Source: Candidatus Margulisiibacteriota bacterium
GTDB lineage: Bacteria; Margulisbacteria; Riflemargulisbacteria; GWF2-39-127
DNA: 36,533 nt
Reading direction: 5' to 3'
NCBI GenBank assembly: GCA_003242895.1
Contig: QKMY01000026.1
Location: 1 to 36,533, forward strand
Numbering within the stretch: the first letter of the stretch is position 1; the number at the start of each line of letters is the position of its first letter. Below are positions 8,555 through 36,533 of the stretch, in pieces. Under the pieces are notes generated by a model. The model was not told the DNA's origin, searched no databases, and saw only the letters and a list, made by a program, of their open reading frames with translations. The translations under genes were made by a program, and so were the position numbers.

Positions 8555-8887
8555 TCAGCCTGTCAGGTGTGGCAAAAGGACACCGAAAAGGTTGTTTTGG
8601 TGGTGCAGGGAACGGTCGCGACCGTTCCCTACAATATGGATAATTGCATGTACATGGTCTGGTATTATAATGAATACATCCATTTTTAAATAACCATATT
8701 GATCAAATAACAAATGCCGTTGTTTATTTATAATTTGCCCTAATGTATTTTGAATCATTTCACCGTTATAGATCTCTCCAAAATACGGGATTCTGTTTTT
8801 TGCGTTTATGGTAATAAAATACGAATTAGGACAACCGTAATCATAGCCAGACAAAAGGTTTAATTTGCGCACAGGAAATCTTGTCAT
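8555..8887 (-). pseudogene. Truncated IS200-like REP-associated transposase (RAYT)
   Basis: The 110-residue product matches the N-terminal two thirds of Y1/RAYT transposases: YDYGCPNSYFITINAKNR near the N-terminus and the HUH metal-binding motif in IIPDHVHAIIHI. RAYTs are usually about 150-200 residues and need a catalytic tyrosine C-terminal to HUH. Here the frame stops soon after HUH, in LLPHLTG, and no continuation is found downstream, so I call it a remnant. The segment GNGRDRS after HUH is encoded by a perfect 22-bp palindrome (8608-8629), apparently the cognate REP element carried within the gene. Its ATG overlaps the stop of the preceding HEPN/HsdS remnant, probably by chance. Confidence 0.8.
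8608..8629. repeat. Perfect 22-bp palindrome inside RAYT remnant
   Basis: GGGAACGGTCG is followed directly by its exact reverse complement. It is read in frame as part of the loop after the HUH motif. REP-like palindromes in this loop are seen in RAYTs of several phyla; its sequence differs from the GGGCG-type family near 13.9-15.6 kb. Confidence 0.85.
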
Positions 8888-12829: not shown

Positions 12830-13271
12830 AGGATATAGATGCCAACCCTTATCAGACCATAAAATTATATGGATTTTTTAACTAATATACAAGAACGAAT
12901 ATTTGGGGGATATGATAAATAATCCGGGAAGAACCTGACCATTAAATAAAAAACGATGGAACAAATAGAATTATGCCTTGTTATATTAAGCAACACTCTA
13001 TATTGGGTTAGATCCGAATACTATTAGTTCCGGCACTTTGACGGACTTACGTTCAATTAACAGAAAAAAAATACCGGATTGTTTCGGAACCGGGAAGAAA
13101 AAGCCGGACCGCTTGTCGGAAGCTTGGTCATTAGAGGCATACGTTCTCTAATCTTCTATCTTCCCCTAATAATAAAAAGCATGAATTTCTTTTTTGCAGA
13201 TGCATTGAGAAATAATCATGTTTTTATAGCTGAGTTTCTTGGCTAATAATAGAGTAAAAGGAGGGAAAAGG
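12830..13271. other. Divergent intergenic region, dinG / EF-hand gene
   Basis: There is no credible gene on either strand. The stretch is A/T-rich at both ends, with a short GC-rich patch around 13070-13125 containing several CCGG-centred words (ACCGG, GCCGG). It must hold the promoters of dinG (minus) and the EF-hand protein (plus), but I see no well-spaced -35/-10 pair. Confidence 0.4.
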
Positions 13272-13862
13272 ATGACAGGAATAGGTTCGGTCAGCAGTTC
13301 GTCGTATAATATCGACGATGTTTGGTCAAAAATTGACAGCAATTCAGACGGATCAGTAACTAAAGAGGAATTTACTGCTCAGCTAAAAGCTGCGATTAAG
13401 AAAAGAGATTCATTTGAGCTATCAAACAGCCAGGGACAGTCAGCCATGATGTACGGCATGCAGGGAAACAGGCCTCAGCCGCCATCGTTCAGTCAAATCC
13501 TGAAGAAGGATGACAGTGACAGCGACGGAAAGATAAGCGCAGAAGAGTTCTCTAATAAAAAAGCAGGCGGGCCTTCGAAAGGACCGAAGTTTGCTGACTT
13601 CGATACTGATAGCGATGGTTATATAACAGAAACCGAGTTCGAGGCGTCGGGTGAGAAACAAGCTGCTGCAAGAGGACCTTCTGCGACTGCTGCTTCTGAG
13701 GTTGATATATCCAGTATATTGAGCCAGCTTCTGGGAAACGATGATGATGATAATAGTAGTTCTATCAGCTCTATTAGCAGCTATTATCAATCGCAAATCG
13801 CTTCTTATGTACAGAATATGACTCAGTTCGATAGTAATTCATTATTCTCGGTGTCTGCTTAA
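13272..13862 (+). CDS. Small EF-hand calcium-binding protein
   Basis: The 196-residue protein has three canonical EF-hand loops: DSNSDGSVTKEE (22-33), DSDSDGKISAEE (81-92) and DTDSDGYITETE (111-122). Each has acidic or oxygen ligands at positions 1, 3, 5 and 12, so Ca2+ binding is expected. The C-terminal 60 residues are serine-rich with an acidic run (NDDDDN) and no hydrophobic anchor. There is no signal peptide (MTGIGSVSSSSYNIDD). ATG 13272 is chosen because AAGGAGGG (13258-13265) lies just upstream; the longer frame from TTG 13239 would run through that site. Similar Ca2+-binding proteins occur in many bacteria with unclear roles in buffering or signalling. REP-like palindromes start 9 bases after the stop and may act in 3'-end formation. 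Confidence 0.85.
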   Translation: MTGIGSVSSSSYNIDDVWSKIDSNSDGSVTKEEFTAQLKAAIKKRDSFELSNSQGQSAMMYGMQGNRPQPPSFSQILKKDDSDSDGKISAEEFSNKKAGGPSKGPKFADFDTDSDGYITETEFEASGEKQAAARGPSATAASEVDISSILSQLLGNDDDDNSSSISSISSYYQSQIASYVQNMTQFDSNSLFSVSA

Positions 13863-13940: not shown

Positions 13941-14100
13941 GGAATCACAATTTATTTGCACGATCACATGAAGATGATTCGGCATAACAACAAAATCATG
14001 GATTATTATTTCGTTACGAATTACTTCCGATCTCTTCCATTCCAGTTCTACAATTACCCCCATATCCGACAAATTCATCTAGCGGATATTCGGGATTGCT

Positions 14101-14125
14101 GTACGGGCGCGCCGCTGGCACGCCC
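14101..14125 (-). repeat. REP-like hairpin inserted in RAYT remnant
   Basis: Inverted copy of the GGGCGTGCC type with AGC instead of ACC in the loop. It interrupts the RAYT frame at residues 45-53. Confidence 0.85.
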
Positions 14126-14292
14126 TTTATTTCTCCCAACAAATGACGTTTTTCATGGATACATATCGTGACATAATAGTATCCTGCCTGGCCGTAATCA
14201 TAATTCCGTAAGCGGATTGATCGCCGATGGTGAATTGCGGGATTATAGGTTGTGTTCATATCGTTATCCTGGTTTCATTTTATTATTCGTTG

Positions 14293-14634: not shown

Positions 14635-15555
14635 TCAGAACAAGACACCGACTGTTACCCGATGGGCGCTGGCCAGGTTGTACCGGTCCTCGCCGAGGTA
14701 CCCGTAGTCGAAATAGATGGCGTATATGCCGGCTGAAATACCAGCGGTCAATGTGCCGCTATCCAGCCCTGCCCTCACACGGAAACGATCAAACAGGTTG
14801 AGCTCGCTCCCCAGATGCCATATCGGATAATGACCGTTACCTAGTTGTTGTTCCAGATCAACTGCGTTAGTCAAGAAATCGAAGGGCTTCCATGAAATAC
14901 CTAGCCTCATGGTCGGGATGACAATCTCCGTCCGGGTGGTTGACCATCGTTGCCAGTTGACGATATCCTTCAAAACAAGTCCGTATTTGAACCCGTTTTC
15001 AGTGTCATAGAGCACACCAAGGCTCATGGTGAAGCCCGCACCTTTTCCCTGCGATATGCCTGCCATATCCTTATAGAACCCTACAGCACTCACCCCCAGA
15101 GACAAACTGCGGCTGACCTTGCAGCCATACCCGGCTATCAGCGCATTGGCATAATAATCGGCGAACCCTTCCGGCGTCACATCGCTATTAATCCCCGGGT
15201 CCGTTGTAGAGACCAGCGGGATATTCTGAACTGAAGCCTGAAGCCAGGATAGGACAAACGCGTTATTTGAGGCAGGGATGCCCAGAGCGATGTAATAATA
15301 GTCGACGACTTCAAGCAACTTAGTCTGCATCGTGGTCAGTTCGGTATGCTTGAGCTGAGAAAGTCCGGCGGGGTTGTAATAATGGGCATTAACATCATCA
15401 GCCACTGCACTAAAAGCGTTACCCATTGAAAGAGCTCTGGTACCGATGCCTGCTGAAAGGAACTCGATCTCGCGTCCGGCCTGGCCGATAGGAACAGCGT
15501 TAGCAAAGGATGATAAAAAGCATAGGAAAAAGAATAATACTGATTTCTTCAGCAT
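14635..15555 (-). CDS. PorV/PorQ-like outer-membrane beta-barrel protein
   Basis: This 306-residue protein has a clear signal peptide, MLKKSVLFFFLCFLSSFANA, followed by the diagnostic PorV/PorQ (UPF0164) start GIGTRALSMGNAFSAVADDVNAHYYNPAGL. The rest alternates aromatic and polar residues, ending LASAHRVTVGVLF with a terminal aromatic residue as in outer-membrane barrels. PorV in Bacteroidetes is the shuttle that carries type IX secretion substrates to the attachment complex; members in other phyla have unproven roles. The start at 15555 is chosen because AAGGAG lies 8 bases upstream and a signal peptide follows; the frame also extends to 15621 through a REP element, which is not credible coding. 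It lies 74 bp downstream of the giant surface-protein gene in the same direction, so co-transcription and a functional link are likely. Confidence 0.88.
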   Translation of the reverse strand: MLKKSVLFFFLCFLSSFANAVPIGQAGREIEFLSAGIGTRALSMGNAFSAVADDVNAHYYNPAGLSQLKHTELTTMQTKLLEVVDYYYIALGIPASNNAFVLSWLQASVQNIPLVSTTDPGINSDVTPEGFADYYANALIAGYGCKVSRSLSLGVSAVGFYKDMAGISQGKGAGFTMSLGVLYDTENGFKYGLVLKDIVNWQRWSTTRTEIVIPTMRLGISWKPFDFLTNAVDLEQQLGNGHYPIWHLGSELNLFDRFRVRAGLDSGTLTAGISAGIYAIYFDYGYLGEDRYNLASAHRVTVGVLF

Positions 15556-15579
15556 GGGAAATACTCCTTCTATGGTGCT

Positions 15580-15604
15580 GGGGCGTGCCAGCGGCGCGCC
15601 GTAC
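15580..15604 (+). repeat. REP-like hairpin between giant gene and porV-like gene
   Basis: GGGGCGTGCC, then AGC, then GGCGCGCC and GTAC: the GGGCGTGCC type with one C lost. It occupies most of the 74-bp gap between two co-directional genes, so it may act as a processing or attenuation hairpin in a shared transcript. Confidence 0.8.
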
Positions 15605-15629
15605 TTGAATACCCAGATCATTGTTTTAG

Positions 15630-18600
15630 TTATCTTAGCTTAATCATTTTGCCTTGCGCATTCGTTGCCCTGCCATTGATTTTTGCTTCGATCTTGTAGA
15701 TATACACTCCGTTGACAACTTCTTCTCCGAGATCATTTTCGCCGTTCCAGGCGGCGTCATTATATTCTTTGGCGGGAGAGGTCCCGTCGGTATCGCCGTC
15801 AAGAACTGTTACCAGTCGTCCGGCAATGGTAAATATATAGATCTTCACCCGATCAGCGTCTTGCGACAGCTTGTACCGGATAGTCGTTCGATGCTCAAAA
15901 GGGTTAGGATAGTTAATGCTCTGTTCGATCTCCGGAACGGCTAGTACCTGGAACACCTTCGAGTTCTTCGACCTGACATACCCTGCGTTATCCGAAGCAG
16001 TATCCATGTTCGCTTCGATCTGCCAGCGCCAGCGGCTCCCTTCCCTGCTCTCCGGCAAACTATCCTGCCAGCCTAAGGTATAATAATATAAAGAGGCTTC
16101 GTTCTTATAATCCCCTGTTCTGATATCGATCACATAATTAGCGCAGGCAGTCTCAAACGGTTCTTGAGAAAGCATATTCCCGGATTCTTCTATAATTGCC
16201 AGTTTGTAGGTTGAATCTACCGGAGTGAAGGCAGGCATTTGCCAGACAAAAGTCGGTTTCGTTGTTTTGACTATGCCTCCATTGTATAGTTCTTTATCTT
16301 TGAGAATTGAGGCAACTAATGAATCCAGGTCACCCGAGGCAGGGGGAGCTATAACGAATGGCCGAGAGTCGGCTGTTGGTACGCTTATTGTTAAAACAGG
16401 TTGTTTGACGGAGGAGTATCCTACCCCAGCTTGGGCCAGAGGGCGGAACTTGTTAGGGATCAGTTTGAGCTTGATACTATAATCGTTGGCAATATTTTTA
16501 TGTATATATGCTACATATACTCCTTTATAGGATGGAATCTCCACAATAACAGGATTGACCGTACAATAATTGTTTATTGTATTTAACACGATGCTATTCG
16601 ACCAATTGACGCCATCATTTGATCGTTTATACAAGATATTGCCTACACTATTGATACTCACTGAATGCCTATAATTGAAATGATCAGTTATATTCAGGTA
16701 ATCTCCGTTTGTTTTTATTCCAGAAGTCAATAAAGTCGAATTCTGAAGGCCTGGGATTAATAGCGTATTTCTCATTATTTTCTTTGCATATGCAGTTGTT
16801 GTCAGTGACCCGCTACTGCTACTCTTTCCTCGTATGCACGATGTTTTAATGGTATATACATTACGGGGCAGAGTAAGCGTAGTATTGTAAAAATTCCAAT
16901 CTAACAGGAAGTTTGTGCCATTATTATCAGTAATTTCTACATAACTATAGGCGATATCCGAATTAGAACTGTTGAAGTAAATCCGCTGGGTAGAATTAAG
17001 CGTAAACGACACTGTATCATAATCCCAATCACGATTTGTATCAAAGCTATAAACAGCGGCTATTAACGAAGGGAAATCAGCACCATATTCCGATTCAAAT
17101 ACAATATTGTCCGTAACACATCCGACAGATAAATGATCGAGTATATTGCCCGTAACATAAACATCCAGAACGTTATTCACGCTTATAGCGCTTATATTTT
17201 CGGTGGTATTCCCTGCGGCGTCGGTATCGACAATCCTGATGGTATACGTGCCATCATCGACATAATCTCCATTATCGTCCGTTCCATTCCAGGTAACGGC
17301 AATGTTCTGGTTACTAATGATAGCATTATTATAAAAGCTCTTAATTATATTATTGTTCACATCCAGGATCGAAAGCGTCACGTAATTGATACTATTGGCA
17401 TCATTAACATTAAAGGTTGCAGAGTAGAGATGATTATCGTAGAGAAAATTGTTGTAGACTGACGGCACATCTACCATGGTTATTGCCGGTTTGGTTGTAT
17501 CGAGAATAATAGTATCGCTTATCGACAAATAATTACCTGCATTGTCATAAATCCGTGAAAAAACTGTTTTAGTGCCGTCACCGCTACTCAAAATCCACTC
17601 TTTTGCAGAATCGTAGGTAAATGCTGAATAATTGCTTGCGTTTTCATTTTTTAATTCCATATTAGCCGATATTCCGGAGGCATCCATATTAGCAGCATTC
17701 AAGATGACATTAGCCGTTTTTGTATAAGGTTGTCCGTTATTAACCGCGAGGGTCCCGGCAGGTGAAGTCTTATCGTAGGTAATTGAGGCGCTGGTAACCG
17801 TCGAATTCCCTGCGTCATCGACGACTTTTACAAATACTGTCCTTAAGCCGTCTTGTCCCGAAGCTAGAGAACAAGCGCTGATTGCCGTGCCGGATGACTG
17901 AGTGGGATTAAGCGCTGTTTCTGTCCAATTGATATTGTCTTTTGATAAAAAGTACCTGGCCACGCCGGAATGCGTATCTGCGTAATTAAAGGCTGTAGAT
18001 ACATTCAAGGTATTGGTGTACTGACCAGCATTGCTATTGACGGACAGGTCCGTTACAGAAGGGGACGTCGCATCCCACTTGAAGGGGCCGAACGATGCGG
18101 GTGAACCTTTGTTGCCTGACACATTTCTTCCAACTATATGCAAGTAATATCCGGCTGCGCTTGTAAGATCGGTAAAGGTCAATTGACCTGAAGTCCAGGC
18201 GTTGTTAATCGCGTCTACCGGAACTGACGGACCCTCAGTTAAAAGATAATAATAGTCGTTTGAATTATCTATTCCAAAAATAGCAGAGAAAACCAAAGCT
18301 CCTCCGTTTGGGGGACCATACCACGTATTTGTTGCCGGGCATGTCACTCTTGGGTCACATGGCAAGGTGTATTGGCTCAATACCGGACTGGCAGCAGTTG
18401 TCTTTCCGTCGCTATTAATATATTGTATTTGATATCCGTATTGGCAATTCGAACGAAGCCCGGTATCAGTATAGCTTGAAGTATAAGGAACAGAAGACGA
18501 GCCATCACCTCCATTGCCGCCTCCCGGATAAATGATATTATATCTGATCAAGCTTTTGTTCTCGACGTTACTATCTTTTAAAGCCGGTTTAATCGTTATT

Positions 18601-30600: not shown

Positions 30601-33600
30601 AACTTCGCTGTATTCGGACTGAACCTTTCCCGGTCACCCATATACAGTTCCAGATCATAGTATCCGGTGAATTTCAGGATATCGTCTTCTATTTCTTTCT
30701 TAAAATCCTGAACCCCGAACAATGCGATATTGGTTGTATTTACCAGGTCGTTGCTTGTAAAAGCCTGGACCTTGTCCGGAATAGCACCCTGTAACATGCC
30801 GTAAGTAGAAAAATGGTCCAGTTCGGCGGATATCTTTAACCTGGTAGTCTCTTTATCCTTTAGCTTACTGGCGGCAACTCCGAACAGTGCGGAAGAATTG
30901 TTTATTCTGGTAGATTTGAGGTTGGCAGCGGTCGAGGAATCTTCAAGCTGTATCTGGCTTTTGGCAATAAACACCTCCCCGGAAGGATTGATGTAGTAGA
31001 TATTCAATTGCCCGACATCAACATGGTCCTGATCGATCATCTTCGCGGCTTCGGCCAGGGTATAATTATATTCGAGAGTTACCTTGTTATTACCATTGAA
31101 TGAGGCAATCGCCGGTTTGATCTCAACCAGCGGCCCGATCGGATGGATATCAAGGTTCCCGCTGATCTTCACCTCGTCAAAACCCAAGGGGGTCACGGTA
31201 ATAAGTGTATTCTTCGTAACCGCTTGCGGAGGAAAGTACAAATGCACCCGCTTGTATGGCGAGTATACATGTCCACCGGCAGAATCGATAGGGGTCCCGA
31301 CAGAAAACGGTACCGTATTTGATCCGCTAACGGTCCTGTCCTCATTATAGGTCCTGATCACTAATTTATAATCGCCATTGAGCCTGGCTGCATCGATATA
31401 ACCTAGACAGTGTTCTCTGTAATCAAACAGATTATCCTTAGTATCGACAGAGAATACATCCGCCACAGTTGTATCGTTAAAATAGTGGAGGGTGTATGGA
31501 GCACCAACTTTTCCCTGAATCGGGATCCAGCATTGCTCTTTGGCGTGTTCCTTAAGCTTGACCTGTAAAGACATATTGTAGTCTAAGCTCTCCGGCGGCA
31601 CAGGGTCGAGATAGTTATGAGGCTTTCCTCGCAGGTCGTACACGTGCGCACTATAGCTTTTAATATTTATAAAAGGATTCTTCTGAATAGTGCTATCGCC
31701 TTGATATCCGGAAAAGGGACTGCCTTTCCAGAAAAGGTCATTCAACCGGCTATTGACGTTACCGGTAATCTGCGGGGCGTAGACAGCTTTAAAAATATCC
31801 AGGGTATTAATACCTGAAGAAGAAAAGGCAACCGGGTTGAACGGAATTATCCCACTATCAATCAAGCCGTTTATATCCCGATACGAATGCGCAATACACG
31901 ACATGTCCATCGACGGGCTCCAGGGTATATGCCATGAGTCCATATTGTCGATTACAGACTTGATAGCGCTGCGATTATCATTCGTTTCGCCTGTACCATT
32001 AGAAAACTTGTAGCTGATAAGGTCGTTCGGATCATTGTCTGTCAGCTTGCAGGTGATACTATCCGTCACAAATCGCCATTCATATCCCTTATTCCGTCTA
32101 TCGCTGAACAGAGAAGTCCAGACATTATCAGCTATCTGGCAGCTATTATTGTTATCTTTATAATATATCGTGCCGGTAAAGTTTTTGGAAATGCTTTGGT
32201 CAGTCGCCCGTGAATCAGGAACAATATAAAAATGCATATTTCCGACGTTATTATCTAAACTAGTGATCCCGGTTTTCTTATGACTATTCGCAAAAGTATT
32301 ATCGACCAGCGTATCTACCCTGATGTTTTCCGCATCAATGTCTGACTTACTGGCAGGCCAGAGAAACGTATAGGCACTCACTTGATTCCGGGGATCGTAC
32401 TCGGTATTGGTTGATACCGAAAACCATAAGGAGTTAGCGGTATTGAGAGGATTAATCAAGGTATTTTCGTCATACGAGCGAAATATATTCCCATTTTTCT
32501 CATAGAGCTTTTTCTCTCCCGGCAACAAAATCGGGATCATATGGAATTCTTCGTCGGATAGATAACTATAATAGTCTGTGACCACTGATGAACCCCATGA
32601 ACCTTTAATCGCATCAATCGCATCGGCTACTTCCTGCGCATTATGGAAAGTACCGGCAGAAGTTGCAGCACCTTTCATAGTTCCGTCATCTACAGGATAG
32701 GCAATACTCAACGCATCGATATTATGTGATGCTTGTATATTAGGACCGGAAAAGAAGTCATTCCCCGGGAACCCCAGGAATGCCGGTTGATTAAACAGAG
32801 ACTTGAAATCGCGATCAAGCCGTCTCCCTTTCCGGACATACCCATACCAGGGAGCGAAGCGGTTCGTCAGCCGGGAGTATTCTATCGGCTGCTCCAACGT
32901 GATCATGAAAATCGTGTGTATATTCTGGTCCTCTTCGATATAAAGCACCAGGCCTTTGAATATCCCTTTATCACTTGTCTTGAGCTTATAATTGTTATAC
33001 TTCCGGATCTCACTCAGTAAGGTACCGCTTATAGCTGCATCCTTTCTTCTTTCGTATTCATTGCGAGCGGCAGACTGTCTTGCCACTTCGGCAGGATCAG
33101 GATTCTCATGATCAATAGGTGTAGGGTTCGCGGACGTCTGCTCCTGATATATTTCTTCGTAGCTTTGAAACGGATAGCTGATACGAATGGGTTCAATATC
33201 TATCGTATCTAAAGCAAATGAATTATGCTTGTCGCGGAACTCCAAGTGCACATTATCATAACCTACCCATCTCGGATCGTTGGTATAACGACCAAATTCC
33301 GTCGTGGCCCTAAATACGTTGAGAGGGCTATAATATGCCTGTTTATCACGCGTGAAATTCTGTGTATAGTTCTGGTCTTTAATAAAATCTTTATCATGCC
33401 ATTTTCCGTTCCAGACACCTTCCCAGCGCTTCCACCGTCCCTGATGGGTCCCCCGGGCGAAGATATTAACCTGGTTGAACCTTCGATGCGCAAGCAGCGC
33501 AAATGGCTCATACGGGTAGGCACGCACATATTGCCTGGCGGATATAAGTCCGAGATTATATGAATAGTTCAATGGTTCATAAAGATCACCTTCAATGTCC

Positions 33601-36533
33601 AGCTTCACGCTATACCAGGAATTAGGAGAAACAATATTCTGTTCGTTCACTGTTACCCCGTTGATTTTGGTGATTAGTGCGTTTCCTGCCACGGCAGTAT
33701 AGACAGTAAAAGGATTCGAGGTGACTATCCGGATGTTATTCACATTAAAATCCTCAGGCTCTCCAGCAACCTGTACTTCAAAATAATAGGTGCCGTTAGG
33801 GACCCGCTCAACACCGTGAGGAGTGCCAGAGTTGCCTCTCCAGATGACCTCATGTTCCCCGCTGTTCCAGGTGGTTGCGGTGCCCTCAATGATACAAACG
33901 ACCTCATGATTCTGCTTTTTCACGAATGATCGGATATAGGCTGTTTTGTTCAGCTTCACTCCGAACTGAGTATAATTGAGGCCACTTGAAGTCGGATCGA
34001 ACCCTGACGGTTGTTTGGTTACACTTTTCGATAAGGGAGTCGTCAGGTAGATAGGTTTGTTCATGGTAACTATATGCCGGTCATTCCCTTCAGCTCTCGC
34101 TTCAACAGTATAATCGCCGTTAGGTATATATTCGCCCGTAGGCAACCTGCCATTGAATACAATTTGCTGAACATTGCTATTGCTTTGATCAATAGTTGTC
34201 ATCGGCATAGTGAGCGGTTTCTTGTTCTTGCCAATAAACAGATATGGAGTGAAACTCGTAAAATGGTCAAAGGAGCCATCTACTTCCGACAGGATAACCG
34301 TCGTTTTCTTTGGGTTCCCTGAAATAAAAATCGACTTTTCGTTCGAGGAAGTGTTCACTTCGAAGTTAATAAGAGGTTCGCTGATACCGGGCCCTTCATT
34401 CATTATCATGCCCTTGTAATTATGGCCTTGAGCCCCCTTACGGAATTCTACATGAACACCGTCTTCATTCTTCCAGATAAAAATCCCCGAATCTTTATCC
34501 TCAAATGACGGGGTACCATAGTAATCGTTATTCACTATGTTAGAGTAAAGCCTATGGAATACTACCTGTCCGGACTGGTTATAGATATCGACATTAACGT
34601 TCGCAGGCTGGTTTATTATAAAAAATGAACAGGTCAAAGATGTTTCGTCAGTTATATTACAGTTCCCAGGTACATCCAGATCGATCGACGGGTAATCGGA
34701 AACCGATAACGCAGGTTCCGGGACTACGTTGATTACCTGGACATCCACCGTGCAGTTGCCATTGGTCTCTTCCACGACTACTGCGATCTGGTAGGCCTTA
34801 GGCGGTAGCAGAGAGGTATTAATGTACCCCAGCACTCCATAATTGCTGACCGGTCTGCCGGAAACATTCTCGGCTCCCAATCTATTCTCACGGGGCACCA
34901 TAACGACATTTCCACTCGTCTCTTTATCCCGCCAGCCACCGCCGAGTTGCGAGGAACGGAAGTCATTAACTGATACCTCGCAAAATGGTAAAGGTCGATA
35001 AAAAATTGAATATTTGGCGAAATCTGCGTTATTAGTCCAGTCAGGGTCCAGGGCACGGCCTTTGATCGCAGTGACTCCGCTCACTCCTGCCGGATGGGCT
35101 GATGTCCCCGTAGGATAAACTATCTCCGGCTTAATGCCGCCTTTCACAAACTCAGAGTATCCTCGCCCGCTGTTCCCGGCCACATCAGTCGCAGTTATAA
35201 CGTAGCGGTACGTGCCGTACGCATTTAATGGCGGGGTATACCTATAATTATTATCACTATTCACCGAGGTTACAGCTCCGGATTGCAAGTCCTCAACGTA
35301 GACCTCGACAACAACAGCCTGTGCATCTTCATAATTATCTCTGGTGATATTGAACGTAACTGTTGTGCTTGTACCATCTCTGAGCACATAAGGATTGGCA
35401 ACTGCATTAATGACAATGGGAGGACTCGTGTCATAGATAAAAGGACATGTTCCTAAAGCAGTGACGCTCTCATTCCCGGCCTGGTCTGCCAGGTGGATGG
35501 TTATATTATACGTTCCTGTTTCCAGCCCCATCGATTGCAAAGATTGACTGCCTGTGAATATATATCCGTCATTATTACGTGTGACGGCTAGAGGAAAGGT
35601 ATAGGTCTTCCCGTTCTTATTGCTGAGCAGGGTATAGCCTGCAGCCGGTTCATTACAGCGACCGGACAGCTCGATATTCGGATTCGACCGATTAGCGATC
35701 ATTGGAGAGACACCACATCCCGTAACTGAGGGCGGCGTGCTATCGATATTCACGGTAATTATGGTCTGGGCAACATTCCCGGCATGGTCTTGCGCTCTGA
35801 TACAGAAATAATAAGTCCCGTTCGGGGATACTGCGGAGTAATCCTCTAGTGTATCAAAAAGCTTGATGGTCTGCTCTACCCTGCCGAGCAGTTCCAGGTT
35901 GTTGGTTGGATAGGACAGAATCGCTTGCACGTCATCAGGATTTTTCTTTAGCGAAAAGGTAACGTTTTTGACGATTTCTGAGATGTTATCGGAGACGGTA
36001 TAGGTAATTCCGCTGGGTTGCGGTTCAGGGGCGTGCCACCGGCGCGCCCGTACATCTGATATCCACAATTCTTGTTTGTTGGTCTTGATTACCGGTGGGG
36101 TTGTGTCTACCCAGAATGGCCAGATGGCTTGCATGGTGTGACCGTAGGCGTCGTGGACTCGCGCGGTGACTTCGTGTCTGCCTTCGGATAGTCCACTGCC
36201 GTGCGTGCTTAGTGTAAACCCGTTAACCAGGTTGCTGGTTGTACCGTAGTCGTACGCAACTTGCAGCGGGGTGAAAGTGGGCGAACCGCCGTTCGCTTCG
36301 AAGCCGTCTACTATAAAATTGTCGACGAAATTGATGGTTGTCGGGTTGCTCTCGAATTGTATATTTTTGAATTGCACTGAGATCATTGGGCTGCAATTGC
36401 TTGTTGCCATATTCTCGACCGGGGTCATATTCTGGGGTAGCATGGGCGTACTGCTCTTGATGATGCGGAGAAACTGATTATTACTCATTCCCACCTTGTT
36501 CGCCAGCTTAAAGGTCAGAATGTTTTGCCCTTC
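15630..36533 (-). CDS. Giant Ig-like repeat surface protein, 5' end beyond window
   Basis: At least 6,967 codons without a stop. The frame is open to the right edge, where EGQNILTFKLANKVGMS continues an Ig-like strand, so the GTG at 36494 is internal and the signal peptide lies outside. Numbering from 36494: Ig-like modules joined by DTTPP-type linkers, about thirty in all (1-930 and 2000-6600); a non-Ig island (930-1735); a ZU5-like module (about 1740-1900, GGHVYSP... to HFSTYGML); ten FSPNGDG-type modules between about 2800 and 5150; fibronectin-like modules around 5850-6100; and a C-terminal FlgD-like/T9SS type A-like domain (YPNPFEHRTTIRYKL, WNGENDLGEEVVNGVYIYKI). The expected product is an exported cell-surface or adhesive fibre protein. 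The porV-like gene follows. Comparable giant genes are known in Omnitrophota and other candidate phyla. No catalytic domain is recognised. Confidence 0.92.
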   Translation of the reverse strand, partial: EGQNILTFKLANKVGMSNNQFLRIIKSSTPMLPQNMTPVENMATSNCSPMISVQFKNIQFESNPTTINFVDNFIVDGFEANGGSPTFTPLQVAYDYGTTSNLVNGFTLSTHGSGLSEGRHEVTARVHDAYGHTMQAIWPFWVDTTPPVIKTNKQELWISDVRARRWHAPEPQPSGITYTVSDNISEIVKNVTFSLKKNPDDVQAILSYPTNNLELLGRVEQTIKLFDTLEDYSAVSPNGTYYFCIRAQDHAGNVAQTIITVNIDSTPPSVTGCGVSPMIANRSNPNIELSGRCNEPAAGYTLLSNKNGKTYTFPLAVTRNNDGYIFTGSQSLQSMGLETGTYNITIHLADQAGNESVTALGTCPFIYDTSPPIVINAVANPYVLRDGTSTTVTFNITRDNYEDAQAVVVEVYVEDLQSGAVTSVNSDNNYRYTPPLNAYGTYRYVITATDVAGNSGRGYSEFVKGGIKPEIVYPTGTSAHPAGVSGVTAIKGRALDPDWTNNADFAKYSIFYRPLPFCEVSVNDFRSSQLGGGWRDKETSGNVVMVPRENRLGAENVSGRPVSNYGVLGYINTSLLPPKAYQIAVVVEETNGNCTVDVQVINVVPEPALSVSDYPSIDLDVPGNCNITDETSLTCSFFIINQPANVNVDIYNQSGQVVFHRLYSNIVNNDYYGTPSFEDKDSGIFIWKNEDGVHVEFRKGAQGHNYKGMIMNEGPGISEPLINFEVNTSSNEKSIFISGNPKKTTVILSEVDGSFDHFTSFTPYLFIGKNKKPLTMPMTTIDQSNSNVQQIVFNGRLPTGEYIPNGDYTVEARAEGNDRHIVTMNKPIYLTTPLSKSVTKQPSGFDPTSSGLNYTQFGVKLNKTAYIRSFVKKQNHEVVCIIEGTATTWNSGEHEVIWRGNSGTPHGVERVPNGTYYFEVQVAGEPEDFNVNNIRIVTSNPFTVYTAVAGNALITKINGVTVNEQNIVSPNSWYSVKLDIEGDLYEPLNYSYNLGLISARQYVRAYPYEPFALLAHRRFNQVNIFARGTHQGRWKRWEGVWNGKWHDKDFIKDQNYTQNFTRDKQAYYSPLNVFRATTEFGRYTNDPRWVGYDNVHLEFRDKHNSFALDTIDIEPIRISYPFQSYEEIYQEQTSANPTPIDHENPDPAEVARQSAARNEYERRKDAAISGTLLSEIRKYNNYKLKTSDKGIFKGLVLYIEEDQNIHTIFMITLEQPIEYSRLTNRFAPWYGYVRKGRRLDRDFKSLFNQPAFLGFPGNDFFSGPNIQASHNIDALSIAYPVDDGTMKGAATSAGTFHNAQEVADAIDAIKGSWGSSVVTDYYSYLSDEEFHMIPILLPGEKKLYEKNGNIFRSYDENTLINPLNTANSLWFSVSTNTEYDPRNQVSAYTFLWPASKSDIDAENIRVDTLVDNTFANSHKKTGITSLDNNVGNMHFYIVPDSRATDQSISKNFTGTIYYKDNNNSCQIADNVWTSLFSDRRNKGYEWRFVTDSITCKLTDNDPNDLISYKFSNGTGETNDNRSAIKSVIDNMDSWHIPWSPSMDMSCIAHSYRDINGLIDSGIIPFNPVAFSSSGINTLDIFKAVYAPQITGNVNSRLNDLFWKGSPFSGYQGDSTIQKNPFINIKSYSAHVYDLRGKPHNYLDPVPPESLDYNMSLQVKLKEHAKEQCWIPIQGKVGAPYTLHYFNDTTVADVFSVDTKDNLFDYREHCLGYIDAARLNGDYKLVIRTYNEDRTVSGSNTVPFSVGTPIDSAGGHVYSPYKRVHLYFPPQAVTKNTLITVTPLGFDEVKISGNLDIHPIGPLVEIKPAIASFNGNNKVTLEYNYTLAEAAKMIDQDHVDVGQLNIYYINPSGEVFIAKSQIQLEDSSTAANLKSTRINNSSALFGVAASKLKDKETTRLKISAELDHFSTYGMLQGAIPDKVQAFTSNDLVNTTNIALFGVQDFKKEIEDDILKFTGYYDLELYMGDRERFSPNTAKLLQKDKDYQIITYAPYQTKVDPKTDKVIINNINEAYIKKNFELKNVHLMSEGDNYLFITYATRNTEIINRPVTTKKITVDTIPPSFSVFSYDSPVFNPATSTDFKAYIRYDENVKLFVKLMDASGKVIIDDVKELAQYQMLALSWLGENQLHYKESAQSGKSVINQVPAEALPDGLCTITIFAIDKAGNVGENKVLPLILDRAPPQISNLDFDFSPWSVARNPRNTISFDLTDNVNKPIKQCDVYVGSLIRGSSGKGAANIAKMINILNTMFCVPQGKTSITWAPTSNIPDGEYEIFLKVRDVADNELIVTRTILVDSTAPVISSPNLTSGRYSSKLNKENAISFIVSDNLSPADLSISVNILDENGHFVEGLRYYEGRGEVQFFITSRFVGNDWKDGNYYARISIQDKAGNRAERLLPFMLDNHAPEIKGAQLNTGIISSKRTNNFFEWSGNLWDAVSTTFNSRFFVEGNKKTVALGLGDSSAQVFDMLKGLTEGGHTITAEIRDLAGNMAIVTHSFIVDNTPPRIPTINLSDREFNFAKGPVSIFIAPADNFSSLVHVWYSLRRQATASSNVLFSQEKVVSGSDEIVFRGFDDNGQTMENGSYLVIVRIQDEAGNESLTTTSLTIKNNKPQIVNVHLTGESLSFVSGIQDFALTFGVKSPEGVTISAVGINLYDSVKGLIATSNLKPGVQHNRQGEGAQNVRNYSVSLNELKGMMGGKNISGLFYFEMAAEDEYGVTTNENVSFYVDNESPQIIEPLLEHSFFSRNYKSNNLTVSIKDNFSPTIDVAVTLQGREEQLVTKMSVTSAKRIVIEHSPTTGIDGTYSYILNCTDGNGNSVSMDIPFEIDNSAPSINSFQVENEVFSPDFDGDKDSIIWNISVSEPGTGYLYIYNKDNSLLKKLVETFVSGNKILSWNGMKETTTADNGTYNYTFKFMDRAGNTSATLARALDVKKGNVLISRISPSREYSSISNGVDLRFSLAEESEVEFVLRGDGISERKSGFVKFTAGANQCRLPDKLLTGLNDGTYILVLIARNQQGKLSQEYSSILKLDVTSPKLSNISCKNTAFRPQTGEEFSVDFYLSEESQLTVKLEDSSLKVLDTIFDAKQVGKQHVTFSGYISKTLLAPGRYVFAITAVDRAGNTVTERVSFECLAPVSPIEIKEVIAHSFSPNDDNVRDVSEIKVSYTGGSDTTKASIWIERDGKEFVRFVDAKGLDGRKYYSSWYGADSSGNKAKDGAYTLVVRLNDPVSEEDIRKEVQFVLVSELPTINCNELVEYFSPNGDSYQDTFNIDVRMDGSSSIRECRDLSTVLRIKCVIADYAGNEIRTYEENMPPGNTRFTWDGTNVQGYAVPDGMYVARITACDSLGSISTVLNRDFFLDTTPPKIVAENNVFIQPCKGDTLTVSYNTNELTEGVITLLSAGEPSGNGQVISNASGNWQECCELVPAHTITGNRIFLFDGKKDGVTTLPSGLYALKFQVIDQAGNRSGKLTTFNIYEKMEAGLLCRDFTPNGDGLLDEVSVSWSITAGSGHYRQTLTLINKEGEAESAFAQFAIPYQVEVSDTISITAYALWNGSGTADGEYSLQLSVIDTITGEQQLITKSMTIASTIPTVSTREENIAFSPNGDGIRDFYTLDVSAVLSAGISESSRLSKKVSANYRVENNSGQVVYEQSEFYENNDRFTWNGRGNDSILACDGQYRVVVEATDTLGNKMNNLVRNIIVDTVKPVVPVVSTIDACTSLNVVPVNGQAEPGNTVRCLVLGFNSSQEYVAPVLLRPMGEGRDEGNGIFQITLNLTEGVNTVSVVSIDSAGNVSATSNTESIIYDPVAPEITRIEYSDESPVKAGELIITVTYSEELNILPEIKIVNTRLELLPFEVRKSGKEVTSRFIIPATLAPQTINRLGALEGSNTVVIRNGKDYAQNIQNVCTGSITIDTTTPSIVVVDGYRSFIQTYKNQVLVVTYNVNEPVEETIILQGNSGGVWKNLSILSNKKEVQGTKTVAFDGMSGYGDELPIGLYGLNFCYVDQAGNRIEKMVTFSIYEKLEADLSCHDFTPNGDGLLDTMNIQWSIRGGSGTYRQTLELFNKAGKTDQEFGRFASPWQGVFLHDNCTPLISHFIWDGAHVDDGEYTLMVQVTDTITGEQQVVTRSISVASVVPTISFSEENSEFSPDLDGVKDAYQLDIYVNLSAGIEESSRLSVSVSADLTVINSSGQTVYENYYKFEKNNSFIWNGETSEGKKAADGKYTINLIGTDILGTTVIDLERTVILDTERPITPLISSMNNYSNKNKMKISGQAETGTAVRCSVLGFNSSKEYVSPVIFCPTGEGRDEGADSFQITVNLTEGVNTVSIVSVDNAGNKSATSNPVIIIYDPVAPGIMIAGHRTFIRPYMGEIMTVSYNLSEPVNELVTLLLGVVTLNTIQSGQEINGEKSFQFDGKFNGAMLPAGVYTFKFQIIDQAGNRSGELTTFNIYEKMEAGLACHDFTPNGDGLLDEVSVSWSITAGSGHYRQTLELVNKVGPENQFSGIVSLCRGEQVTDNLIPQSFNFIWNGAGVADGEYTLQLSVIDLITGEQQLITKSMTIASTIPTVSTREENIAFSPNGDGIQDLYAMAVTVDLSSGITAGDRLSHRVSANYSIVNEARQVVYSLTRTYEKNDEFLWNGRGNNGNIVPDGRYQVILQVADILGNKMNSLVSNIIVDTVKPMKPVLCAIDAFTSINVVQVSAVAEAGSTVRCSVLSSPGSQEAQYLLCENDFHITVNLTEGENTICVASIDNAGNESATSNPVSIIYDPAAPEIVGIEYSDETPVKAGELIITINFSEELNALPDIRIVKPNLELLPIEVRKSGKKVISRFIIPASLTPQTINQEGGLEGNNILVIRNGKDFAVNSMSAVSCNIIIDTVTPELLSLTYTPCSPIKSGELKITALYSEPLVDIPDISIVSVNTVLRCQSVAHNGGQLEYTFDIPEERMDGICSVSIGSANDFSGNGSAISLNHLLIDTLRPELTTYSVWYSSDPNGVDTSDLKVSPLDINEYLVRSGYLWVKAVFSEDIDCSLLPFFKIYNDIPCDIVTVNPNTIMARARIDEDYGEKDTPITIAGIVDSAGNGMLTHTLMDGVPDKLKIDTTPPEIISFNNPDRPGNNCFSPDGDGLDDTLRIFIEISESAYIRSLAVFDENDRLIRTIARDEVFDKGPDLNGCIDFVWDGTDDQGITRNEKAYYKLVLDSADFAGNNARTVSEKLIKIEQVESSFNIPDSGAVSVSSQSISHNPFSPLVQKLITFVYKFDENTLYPVKPLKFGQIDLLSVPGTSNMRIKLVREFVENDRSEIVAVLHDWHPTVVGAVTVTWNGEGRGTDGTYAFCVEGKDYFDKKSQFALNLPFIVDTSMPGIYNLSLNTDYISPSLSVSVQDRTTVSFSSSDVSTWSASLSVNVDILTSTNSPVRRIFDGSCSNGNTINVNWDGRDDRSYVADGWYHIRVSATDKAENTISSHKDICVDNTLPDVQLKEGPFNYIKLVNNTTPFYLVSSNIQFYASCSDTNLKNYWIIATTANSTVTLSSGALSQSVQDIPFSCATGNLGLLGQWDINAFAQDKAGNIASGNVIRIVVDTVCDGTPTFSINNWNKYVTQNYVSIAAGATDMNGIGYLLYSLNGGSWQSVLYNGTTTNFTVNLSTEGFQTMSLKAVDKAGNVSSPATSQSIIYDKTAPDVSITSSTHPSQVSWSNNTSVTVKFNGTDTSGISGYYYRFQKDTASGMAYTNSDTVSKGLDNGIWTVYVNAVDNAGNISAQASYFCNIDTQKPVIPGITSPTHADTWSSNRNCTVRYSVDNDGFSPFDHYETAVINTGNSQEINPQEINIITNDSYSFTVSNGTQHINYFYVRAVDQAGNIGDWYGKSFKVDTVSPNIPTDLSCTINTTSMVFNAVAINDNRPNDPATLNYEYELDDGPIIGPYNATYQYSPADLKENSLHTLRARSVDDVGNRSPWFSMGCSTLIHDPAADELIIETKTATSITIKPALKDSNVENKSLIRYNIIYPGGGNGGDGSSSVPYTSSYTDTGLRSNCQYGYQIQYINSDGKTTAASPVLSQYTLPCDPRVTCPATNTWYGPPNGGALVFSAIFGIDNSNDYYYLLTEGPSVPVDAINNAWTSGQLTFTDLTSAAGYYLHIVGRNVSGNKGSPASFGPFKWDATSPSVTDLSVNSNAGQYTNTLNVSTAFNYADTHSGVARYFLSKDNINWTETALNPTQSSGTAISACSLASGQDGLRTVFVKVVDDAGNSTVTSASITYDKTSPAGTLAVNNGQPYTKTANVILNAANMDASGISANMELKNENASNYSAFTYDSAKEWILSSGDGTKTVFSRIYDNAGNYLSISDTIILDTTKPAITMVDVPSVYNNFLYDNHLYSATFNVNDANSINYVTLSILDVNNNIIKSFYNNAIISNQNIAVTWNGTDDNGDYVDDGTYTIRIVDTDAAGNTTENISAISVNNVLDVYVTGNILDHLSVGCVTDNIVFESEYGADFPSLIAAVYSFDTNRDWDYDTVSFTLNSTQRIYFNSSNSDIAYSYVEITDNNGTNFLLDWNFYNTTLTLPRNVYTIKTSCIRGKSSSSGSLTTTAYAKKIMRNTLLIPGLQNSTLLTSGIKTNGDYLNITDHFNYRHSVSINSVGNILYKRSNDGVNWSNSIVLNTINNYCTVNPVIVEIPSYKGVYVAYIHKNIANDYSIKLKLIPNKFRPLAQAGVGYSSVKQPVLTISVPTADSRPFVIAPPASGDLDSLVASILKDKELYNGGIVKTTKPTFVWQMPAFTPVDSTYKLAIIEESGNMLSQEPFETACANYVIDIRTGDYKNEASLYYYTLGWQDSLPESREGSRWRWQIEANMDTASDNAGYVRSKNSKVFQVLAVPEIEQSINYPNPFEHRTTIRYKLSQDADRVKIYIFTIAGRLVTVLDGDTDGTSPAKEYNDAAWNGENDLGEEVVNGVYIYKIEAKINGRATNAQGKMIKLR
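21900..26455 (-). repeat. Three tandem 1.3-1.7 kb coding repeats in the giant gene
   Basis: Units run about 26455-24790, 24790-23480 and 23480-21900. Each encodes, in order, an F(I)xPY..VTYN Ig-like module, FTPNGDGLLD, a GEQQ..T(K/R)S linker, FSPxxDG with RLSxxVSA and F(I/T)WNG, then a module with VRCxVLGFNSS or a variant and LTEGxNT. Units 1 and 3 also have a module starting IEYSDE(S/T)PVKAGEL that unit 2 lacks. Units 1 and 3 share 59 identical bases (25726-25784 and 22804-22862) and another exact 41-base run near 26020-26060 and 23090-23130, so duplication or gene conversion is recent. Confidence 0.88.
30800..31285 (-). other. ZU5-like module within the giant protein
   Basis: The encoded segment begins SAGGHVYSPYKRVHLYFPPQ, then AVTKNTLITVTPL, and ends AELDHFSTYGML. 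The GG..(V)..PPxAV..N TxITVTP start and the HFSTY end match ZU5-type beta modules common in large bacterial surface proteins. It separates the non-Ig island from the main Ig array. Confidence 0.55.
31290..33700 (-). other. Non-Ig island within the giant protein (about 800 residues)
   Basis: Roughly residues 930-1735 lack the DTTPP linkers and AGN/DG signatures that recur elsewhere. The stretch is rich in W, Y, F, N and basic residues (GRWKRWEGVWNGKWHDKD; RFAPWYGYVRKGRRLDRDF) with a short charged helical patch (PAEVARQSAARNEYERRKDA). I recognise no family. It could be a ligand-binding or enzymatic head carried by the Ig stalk. Confidence 0.6.
36028..36053 (+). repeat. REP-like hairpin in frame inside the giant gene
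   Basis: The sequence is identical over 26 bases to the intergenic elements at 13872 and 14350. It is read in frame as VRARRWHAPEP (residues 148-158) in the middle of an Ig-like module, between WISD and QPSGITYTVSDN, without breaking the reading frame. Confidence 0.9.

Follow-up and report, generated by a model that had tools for sequence, protein, structure and literature searches.

The locus and its contig limits

The window analysed here is one entire contig (C26) of a Candidatus Margulisiibacteriota bacterium, 36,533 bases in length, and its right half is filled by a single minus-strand frame (15630–36533) that stays open for 6,967 residues and runs off the contig end. This frame encodes a giant Ig-built protein of about 7,819 residues in total, the N-terminus of which lies on a second contig, C27. 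Residue i of the visible part starts at window position 36533-3(i-1). As read from the sequence, with the front supplied by C27, the order of parts is a signal peptide, an alpha/beta-hydrolase, Ig domains, a long stretch pointed out earlier as unrecognised (hereafter, the island), an Ig-like domain, a ZU5 domain with HFS at its end, a long Ig stalk, and a type IX (T9SS)-type sorting tail. Elsewhere in the window, a single frame at 646–2535 has matches to D12/Dam-type adenine methylases in two stretches, like fused methylase domains, and two short minus-strand frames (8555–8887 and 14014–14259) are, judging by eye, presumably REP-associated transposase fragments. A small EF-hand protein is encoded on the plus strand near the giant gene (13239–13862) and could bear on calcium-dependent surface proteins.

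Because the giant frame is cut by the end of C26, the place of the island in the whole chain can only be given with the aid of the second contig. C27 comprises 3,238 bases, and its minus-strand frame of 889 amino acids leaves the contig at the C27 start. A comparison of the ends showed that the first 100 bases of C27 are identical to the last 100 of the window, and in frame. Such identical 100-base ends are a typical assembler product at a graph break. The overlap and the same order of parts in relatives support the join of C26 and C27, although they are not proof of it. Calculated from the contig ends, without building the joined sequence, the protein would have 885+6967-33 = 7,819 residues; the island would then span about 1797–2600, and the HFS tripeptide would start at 2759.

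Upstream of the giant gene, a partial frame on C27 resembles the upstream genes in L036, L049, and L038 (E 7e-11, 1e-10, and 4e-8, respectively). From their PD40/TolB motif pattern we take these upstream genes to be propeller lipoproteins; Pfam gave propeller matches below threshold for those of L037 and L038, the C27 frame had no such match, and a propeller-like upstream gene was not seen in the Termititenax-type loci. Mutually alike frames also stand ahead of the giant locus in L036 (7657–8418), L038 (2890–3639), and L048 (4017–4763), and by eye they presumably resemble LolA-type carriers.

The N-terminal hydrolase

Several complete relatives of the giant start with a signal peptide (recognised by eye) followed by an alpha/beta-hydrolase with the motifs LVHGxG, HS(M/A)GG, and PHxGS. 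We take the HG to be the oxyanion region and the HSxG to be the nucleophile motif. Four of the seven hydrolase proteins scanned pass a Pfam cut-off, namely those of L038 (DUF676, 29.0 bits against a cut-off of 20.3), L029 (PGAP1, 29.8 against 24.3), L046 (Abhydrolase_6, 32.1 against 26.3), and L050 (PGAP1, 26.4 against 24.3), those of L037, L033, and L049 remaining below. The hydrolase of L037 alone gave no match as a query in the genome of the window. An 11-row hydrolase profile gave a single match there (E 3.6e-38), on contig C27. This domain matches no Pfam family at E≤0.01; its frame contains LTHSYGN and MVHGVS, and thus the elbow serine of HSxG and the HG of the oxyanion motif. The HG oxyanion region and the HSxG motif are shared with PGAP1, DUF676, and Abhydrolase_6 hydrolases; in contrast to these, the hydrolase of the giant is fused to the island and to thousands of residues of Ig stalk.

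Island and hydrolase go together across genomes. At E<1e-20, both were found in 19 of 74 genomes, only the island in four, only the hydrolase in four, and neither in 47, which corresponds to a Fisher p of 2.7e-10 when shared ancestry is ignored. They stand in one open frame in 12 genomes, the genome of the window being the thirteenth by way of the contig overlap. There are exceptions to this fusion: the giants of L040 and L043 start without a hydrolase, and in the Cloacimonadota locus L050 the hydrolase is a separate frame.

The island

The island is preceded by an Ig-like region (33702–36533, minus strand) of 944 residues, with matches to Big_13 (63 bits), Big_3_3, and CHU_C and a sub-threshold one to FlgD_ig; after it, Pfam gives a weak ZU5 match and then Ig families again. 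The original prediction described an unrecognised stretch of about 800 residues at 31290–33700. Residues 945–1748 (31290–33701) indeed match no Pfam family at E≤1 and no NCBIfam family at E≤0.01, but the last 80 residues or so are Ig/fn3-like. Since this closing domain takes up residues ~1665–1745 (31299–31541, minus strand), the truly unrecognised part amounts to about 720 residues: a mostly beta module comprising residues 945–1664 (31542–33701, minus strand). Relatives of the closing domain are found in subtilase-like proteins with sorting tails.

The stretch had also been described as rich in aromatic residues and in Asn. The former is borne out, with F+W+Y amounting to 13.0% in the island and 9.2% in the rest of the protein (rank 63 among 6,163 windows, each 805 residues long; the peak window begins at residue 963), whereas Asn, at 8.8% against 8.1% elsewhere, ranks only 1,599 of 6,163. 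The predicted lack of Ig linkers is borne out too: when linker-like motifs were counted by an ad hoc pattern, the island had a single one of the 12, and this one belongs to the conserved NRFAPW. The motifs common to the aligned islands are YPYVPFAGLxHRGF, YSRLTNRFxPWYGFVN, LGFPGxxFF, YLSDEYFEFIPIT, NPNLxIxxWxVxVxD, and LAWWDVxRLNGxYTV, and in the alignment the top-conserved one is YSRLTNRFAPWYGYV (residues 1219–1233; 32835–32879, minus strand). The island alignment had 16 rows, 13 of which were kept in A1 after removing L027, L030, and L036 (two partial and one with masked stretches); alignments A2 and A4 were made without L041, which has runs of masked N, and L049 is in A4 and not in A2.

Two structure models were considered, both mostly strand. 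The model with the window sequence first (14 rows) reached a mean pLDDT of 58.9 and a pTM of 0.42, and that with the L037 sequence first (15 rows) reached 78.8 and 0.54. In the fold comparison of the window-first model, rows 1–7 are all ankyrin ZU5 domains (Z 9.1–8.0, rmsd 2.7–3.6, 117–130 residues), the next row with an unrelated fold having a Z of 7.9; Foldseek also ranks an ankyrin ZU5 first (prob 1.00, E 8.9e-3). The tightest range for this fold is residues 1746–1890. With the L037-first model, ZU5 is absent from the first 50 rows of the fold comparison and from the listed Foldseek matches. Small sandwiches, Ig-like and other, occupy the top rows; they cover about 90 residues up to around model residue 705, with Z up to 8.7, values that the tool's own note places near background. 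We take these sandwich matches to be the domain that also resembles the repeats of the subtilase-like proteins. No specific fold emerged from either model over the first ~600 residues and, because the models are long, this should be read as a fold not identified and not as a new one. Structure prediction and fold search of the island, modelled as one long chain, gave an Ig/fn3-like match over ~1665–1745 only. One strand of 27–30 residues and helices are present in the island models. The fold comparisons gave no prominent enzyme fold for the island, an absence which in that tool excludes nothing; a viral fold library gave only long, poor alignments of no use; and searches of PDB sequences with the island and ZU5 profiles returned nothing useful, the ZU5 profile matching no PDB chain.

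Relatives and orthology of the giants

Of 54 other genomes, 15 gave a match to the island in a single-sequence search, as partial matches in very long frames. In the genome contig collection, a single-sequence scan found no relative, but an alignment-based scan did. With the island profile, 32 of 74 genomes have a match at E≤0.001 and 23 of 74 at E<1e-20 (counted from the match table). The frames bearing it are ~1,000–10,000 residues long and, by the named records, belong to WOR-1/Saganbacteria, Margulisiibacteriota, and Termititenax, besides one Cloacimonadota genome and one unplaced bacterium. The weakest profile matches, at model positions ~630–698, were considered as extra copies of the island and rejected, since on reading the proteins they proved to be Ig-like repeats and thus cover the shared Ig-like part alone. 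The proteins of L083, L084, L086, L087, and L088, subtilase-like by eye, have a similar sorting tail and also contain the closing Ig-like domain of the island. All seven sampled genomes from the class of the window (G001–G007) lack island, hydrolase, and ZU5, which more distant genomes of the phylum have; thus, the gene has either been lost there or been gained by the lineage of the window from elsewhere.

When the L037 giant is compared with five relatives, the Ig region ahead of the island reaches the same level of identity as the island itself in four of them. Window residues 1–2187 align with 662–2810 of the L029 giant, and 1–2037 with 717–2824 of that of L051. Owing to these co-linear long matches and to flanks as similar as the island itself, the front part of the giants can be considered one orthologous protein, whereas the back part is rich in Ig repeats and variable in length. 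We are almost certain of this orthology and architecture. The claim of a new module therefore holds in part: the island is distinct and conserved and has no ordinary Ig or fibronectin match over its first ~720 residues, but it is not more conserved than its flanks.

The ZU5 domain and its HFS site

A ZU5-like module directly after the island had been proposed, and residues 1746–1923 (30765–31298, minus strand) do form one, weak by sequence and clear by fold. The Pfam family (PF00791) scores 16.4 bits, or 19.3 bits with the full domain (E 0.0014), under its cut-off of 21; a PF00791 search of the whole genome gave no match, the positive control being likewise silent. The domain ends as ...ISAELD-HFS-TYGMLQG, with HFS at residues 1907–1909 (30807–30815, minus strand) as the candidate self-cleavage site and the sole HFS in the 6,967 residues. 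We infer that the tripeptide, which falls outside both structure models, sits before the last strand of ZU5.

Among 16 giants scanned, some of them partial, 15 have HFS once each and always at the ZU5 end, and the Cloacimonadota protein is without it; from composition, 0.03–0.32 occurrences per giant protein would be expected. Alignment A5 is made up of 12 giants, with L024, L031, L033, L050, and others left out. The ZU5-HFS profile (12 rows) finds 23 of 74 genomes, with one copy each, the match of G046 being split by a masked stretch. A full or split match occurs in 21 genomes, and HFS is present in all 20 of these that were examined (G068 was left out, and profile rows are among those counted), and the two weak matches without it (G018 and G023) read SFS and GFS near the site. 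The domain thus has, towards its C-terminus, the [H/S]FS of the self-cleaving ZU5 superfamily (PIDD, CARD8, Nup98). PMC3210808 reports HFS in PIDD and Nup98 and SFS in CARD8, with the cut at the ZU5 C-terminus directly before the last strand. From the motif and its position, we consider cleavage at HFS an even question.

Export and the PorV neighbour

The giant ends in a T9SS type A-like C-terminal sorting tail (15666–15911, minus strand), which matches TIGR04183 with 29.6 bits (24.2 in another scan) over a cut-off of 23. Eight bases downstream of the giant frame, and on the same strand, begins a gene of the PorV/PorQ family of outer membrane proteins (14635–15621, minus strand; 74.1 bits, E 1.5e-20), which does not reach the NF033709 cut-off of 90. 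By eye, PorV-like frames also follow the giant gene in L037, L039, L040, L043, L045, L046, L048, and L031; the downstream frame of L037, the sole one of those scanned, has a weak Toluene_X match under the cut-off. The giant of L038 ends without a sorting tail.

The genome of the window has six type IX-like tails (on C19, C26, C4, C12, C60, and C65) and 17 PorV-family matches, two of them above the cut-off. Five of the six tails have a PorV-family match at most 2.6 kb away on the same strand, three of these within 330 bases, which suggests that cargo/shuttle pairs may exist in Margulisbacteria. In Flavobacterium, a type B cargo has its own paired shuttle gene (PMC12618676), and the sorting tail with an adjoining shuttle-family gene is what the giant shares with type IX cargo and shuttle systems such as PorV and SprB/SprF. 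For the core genes, no match reached the cut-off in this genome: the best SprA score is 26.1 bits against a cut-off of 200, from a short stretch in an 871-aa frame (G000:C72:17108-17347, L052), and GldM gave no match, with the control also silent. Margulisbacteria are outside the group described in PMC11285876 (2024), which reports T9SS genes to be absent beyond the FCB phyla; a full T9SS is thus unproven here. Nevertheless, judging from tail and neighbour, we think that export by a T9SS-like route is quite likely.

Interpretation and alternatives

The original prediction regarded the island as the functional head or an enzyme. This part is not supported, given that the enzyme-like domain is the separate N-terminal alpha/beta-hydrolase on C27 and that, as far as can be judged from the alignment, no conserved motif of the island resembles a catalytic set. 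The island may have an adhesin or partner-binding role. Rather than as an enzyme, it probably serves as a module for binding or spacing.

For the locus as a whole, we give a slight preference to the explanation in which the Margulisbacteria group has an orthologous giant surface hydrolase, with the island as one of its conserved beta-rich modules and a self-cutting ZU5 behind it. The giant chain would exit by Sec and then by a type IX-like route, and it would be held on the outer membrane through its sorting tail and its PorV partner. Within the ZU5 domain the chain would cut itself at HF|S, the products of ~2,760 and ~5,060 residues being kept together non-covalently, and the island, placed between enzyme and break, would provide rigidity or bind a partner. 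With fragments paired in this manner, hydrolase and island would constitute a detachable head on a stalk. The fold directly behind the island cuts itself in some animal proteins, so that a self-made break may be what keeps the lipase-like enzyme end attached to the cell. That the head is releasable is a tentative proposal, which we put below the explanation itself. More doubtful is a further extension, in which the giant is the counterpart of an animal self-cleaving tether: a giant outer-membrane hydrolase cut at HF|S, the head of which would be pulled off by force or by a partner, with the island, then a new domain, as trigger reader or lock of the break, in a one-copy device found across the phylum.

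A reading that we take seriously, although we lean against it, keeps the same giant surface hydrolase and makes the ZU5 purely structural, with HFS kept for folding and the chain uncleaved. H, F, and S are three among 18 invariant columns of the domain and no lone conserved spot, and the best fold matches are ankyrin ZU5 domains, which are binding domains and, to our knowledge, not self-cleaving. What argues for a cut instead is that the tripeptide is the same as in PIDD and Nup98 and stands at the position cut in CARD8 (PMC3210808), besides being retained in every genome examined with a full or split match.

It is unlikely that the island is made of divergent Ig or fibronectin modules like those elsewhere in the protein. 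In favour of this reading, strand predominates in both models, the Foldseek matches of the better one are rich in multi-Ig proteins, and the closing ~80 residues match Ig-like folds and the Ig repeats of the subtilase-like proteins. However, an Ig family within the island appears in none of the 13 members scanned, the first ~600 model residues are without a specific fold match, and the long strand, the helices, and unique motifs such as SRLTNRFxPW argue against it. The plain-Ig reading is thus unproven rather than refuted.

A second enzyme is quite improbable, even if the island is large and conserved and has Arg, Asn, Glu, and aromatic residues that are invariant or almost so. The protein already has a hydrolase, the island matches no enzyme family and no prominent enzyme fold, and its motifs, rich in aromatic residues, Pro, and Gly, would be nearer to a binding or packing surface; a new enzyme was therefore set aside for want of a catalytic pattern. 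That the giant is a contact-dependent weapon is very improbable, because the large ZU5-bearing polymorphic toxins reported in PMC3482391 have an N-terminal ZU5 and RHS repeats, a layout different from that found here, and the data favour an N-terminal hydrolase and a C-terminal tail constant across the phylum.

Relation to known systems and significance

The closest precedent for the self-cutting surface hydrolase that we favour is the combination of ZU5 and lipase in large surface proteins of bacteria, in print since 2012: PMC3482391 describes ZU5 as self-cleaving in PIDD and present in polymorphic toxins, reports related ZU5 domains alongside adhesion modules and enzymes, lipases among them, in these large proteins of the bacterial surface, and proposes self-processing as a general feature of such proteins. 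The giant likewise combines ZU5 with adhesion-type modules and a hydrolase, but the motif given there is CxH and here it is HFS, and the available text of that paper names no Margulisbacteria example, no module of ~720 residues, and no T9SS-type tail with a PorV neighbour. With PIDD, the FIIND of CARD8/NLRP1, and Nup98, it shares a ZU5-type fold (PIDD and CARD8) and, at the C-terminus of that domain, HFS (PIDD and Nup98; PMC3210808). These are intracellular animal proteins, whereas the giant is a bacterial surface protein in which neither a UPA nor a death domain was found and in which cleavage is putative. A search of the open-access literature, outside which most subscription journals fall, returned nothing on the island, on this family of Margulisbacteria proteins, or on its HFS site.

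A census places Margulisbacteria among the bacteria richest in huge proteins (PMC11573180). The huge proteins of candidate phyla are numerous and nearly unannotated, and the giant described here lends itself to a reading as a machine of ordered parts: enzyme, stalk, export tail, and possibly a self-made break. Its island, for which databases have no family, recurs across the phylum. Should the ZU5 domain cut, the giant would provide a bacterial, surface-exposed relative of the self-cleaving domain of PIDD and NLRP1 and, moreover, a direct test of the 2012 proposal that such surface proteins commonly process themselves.
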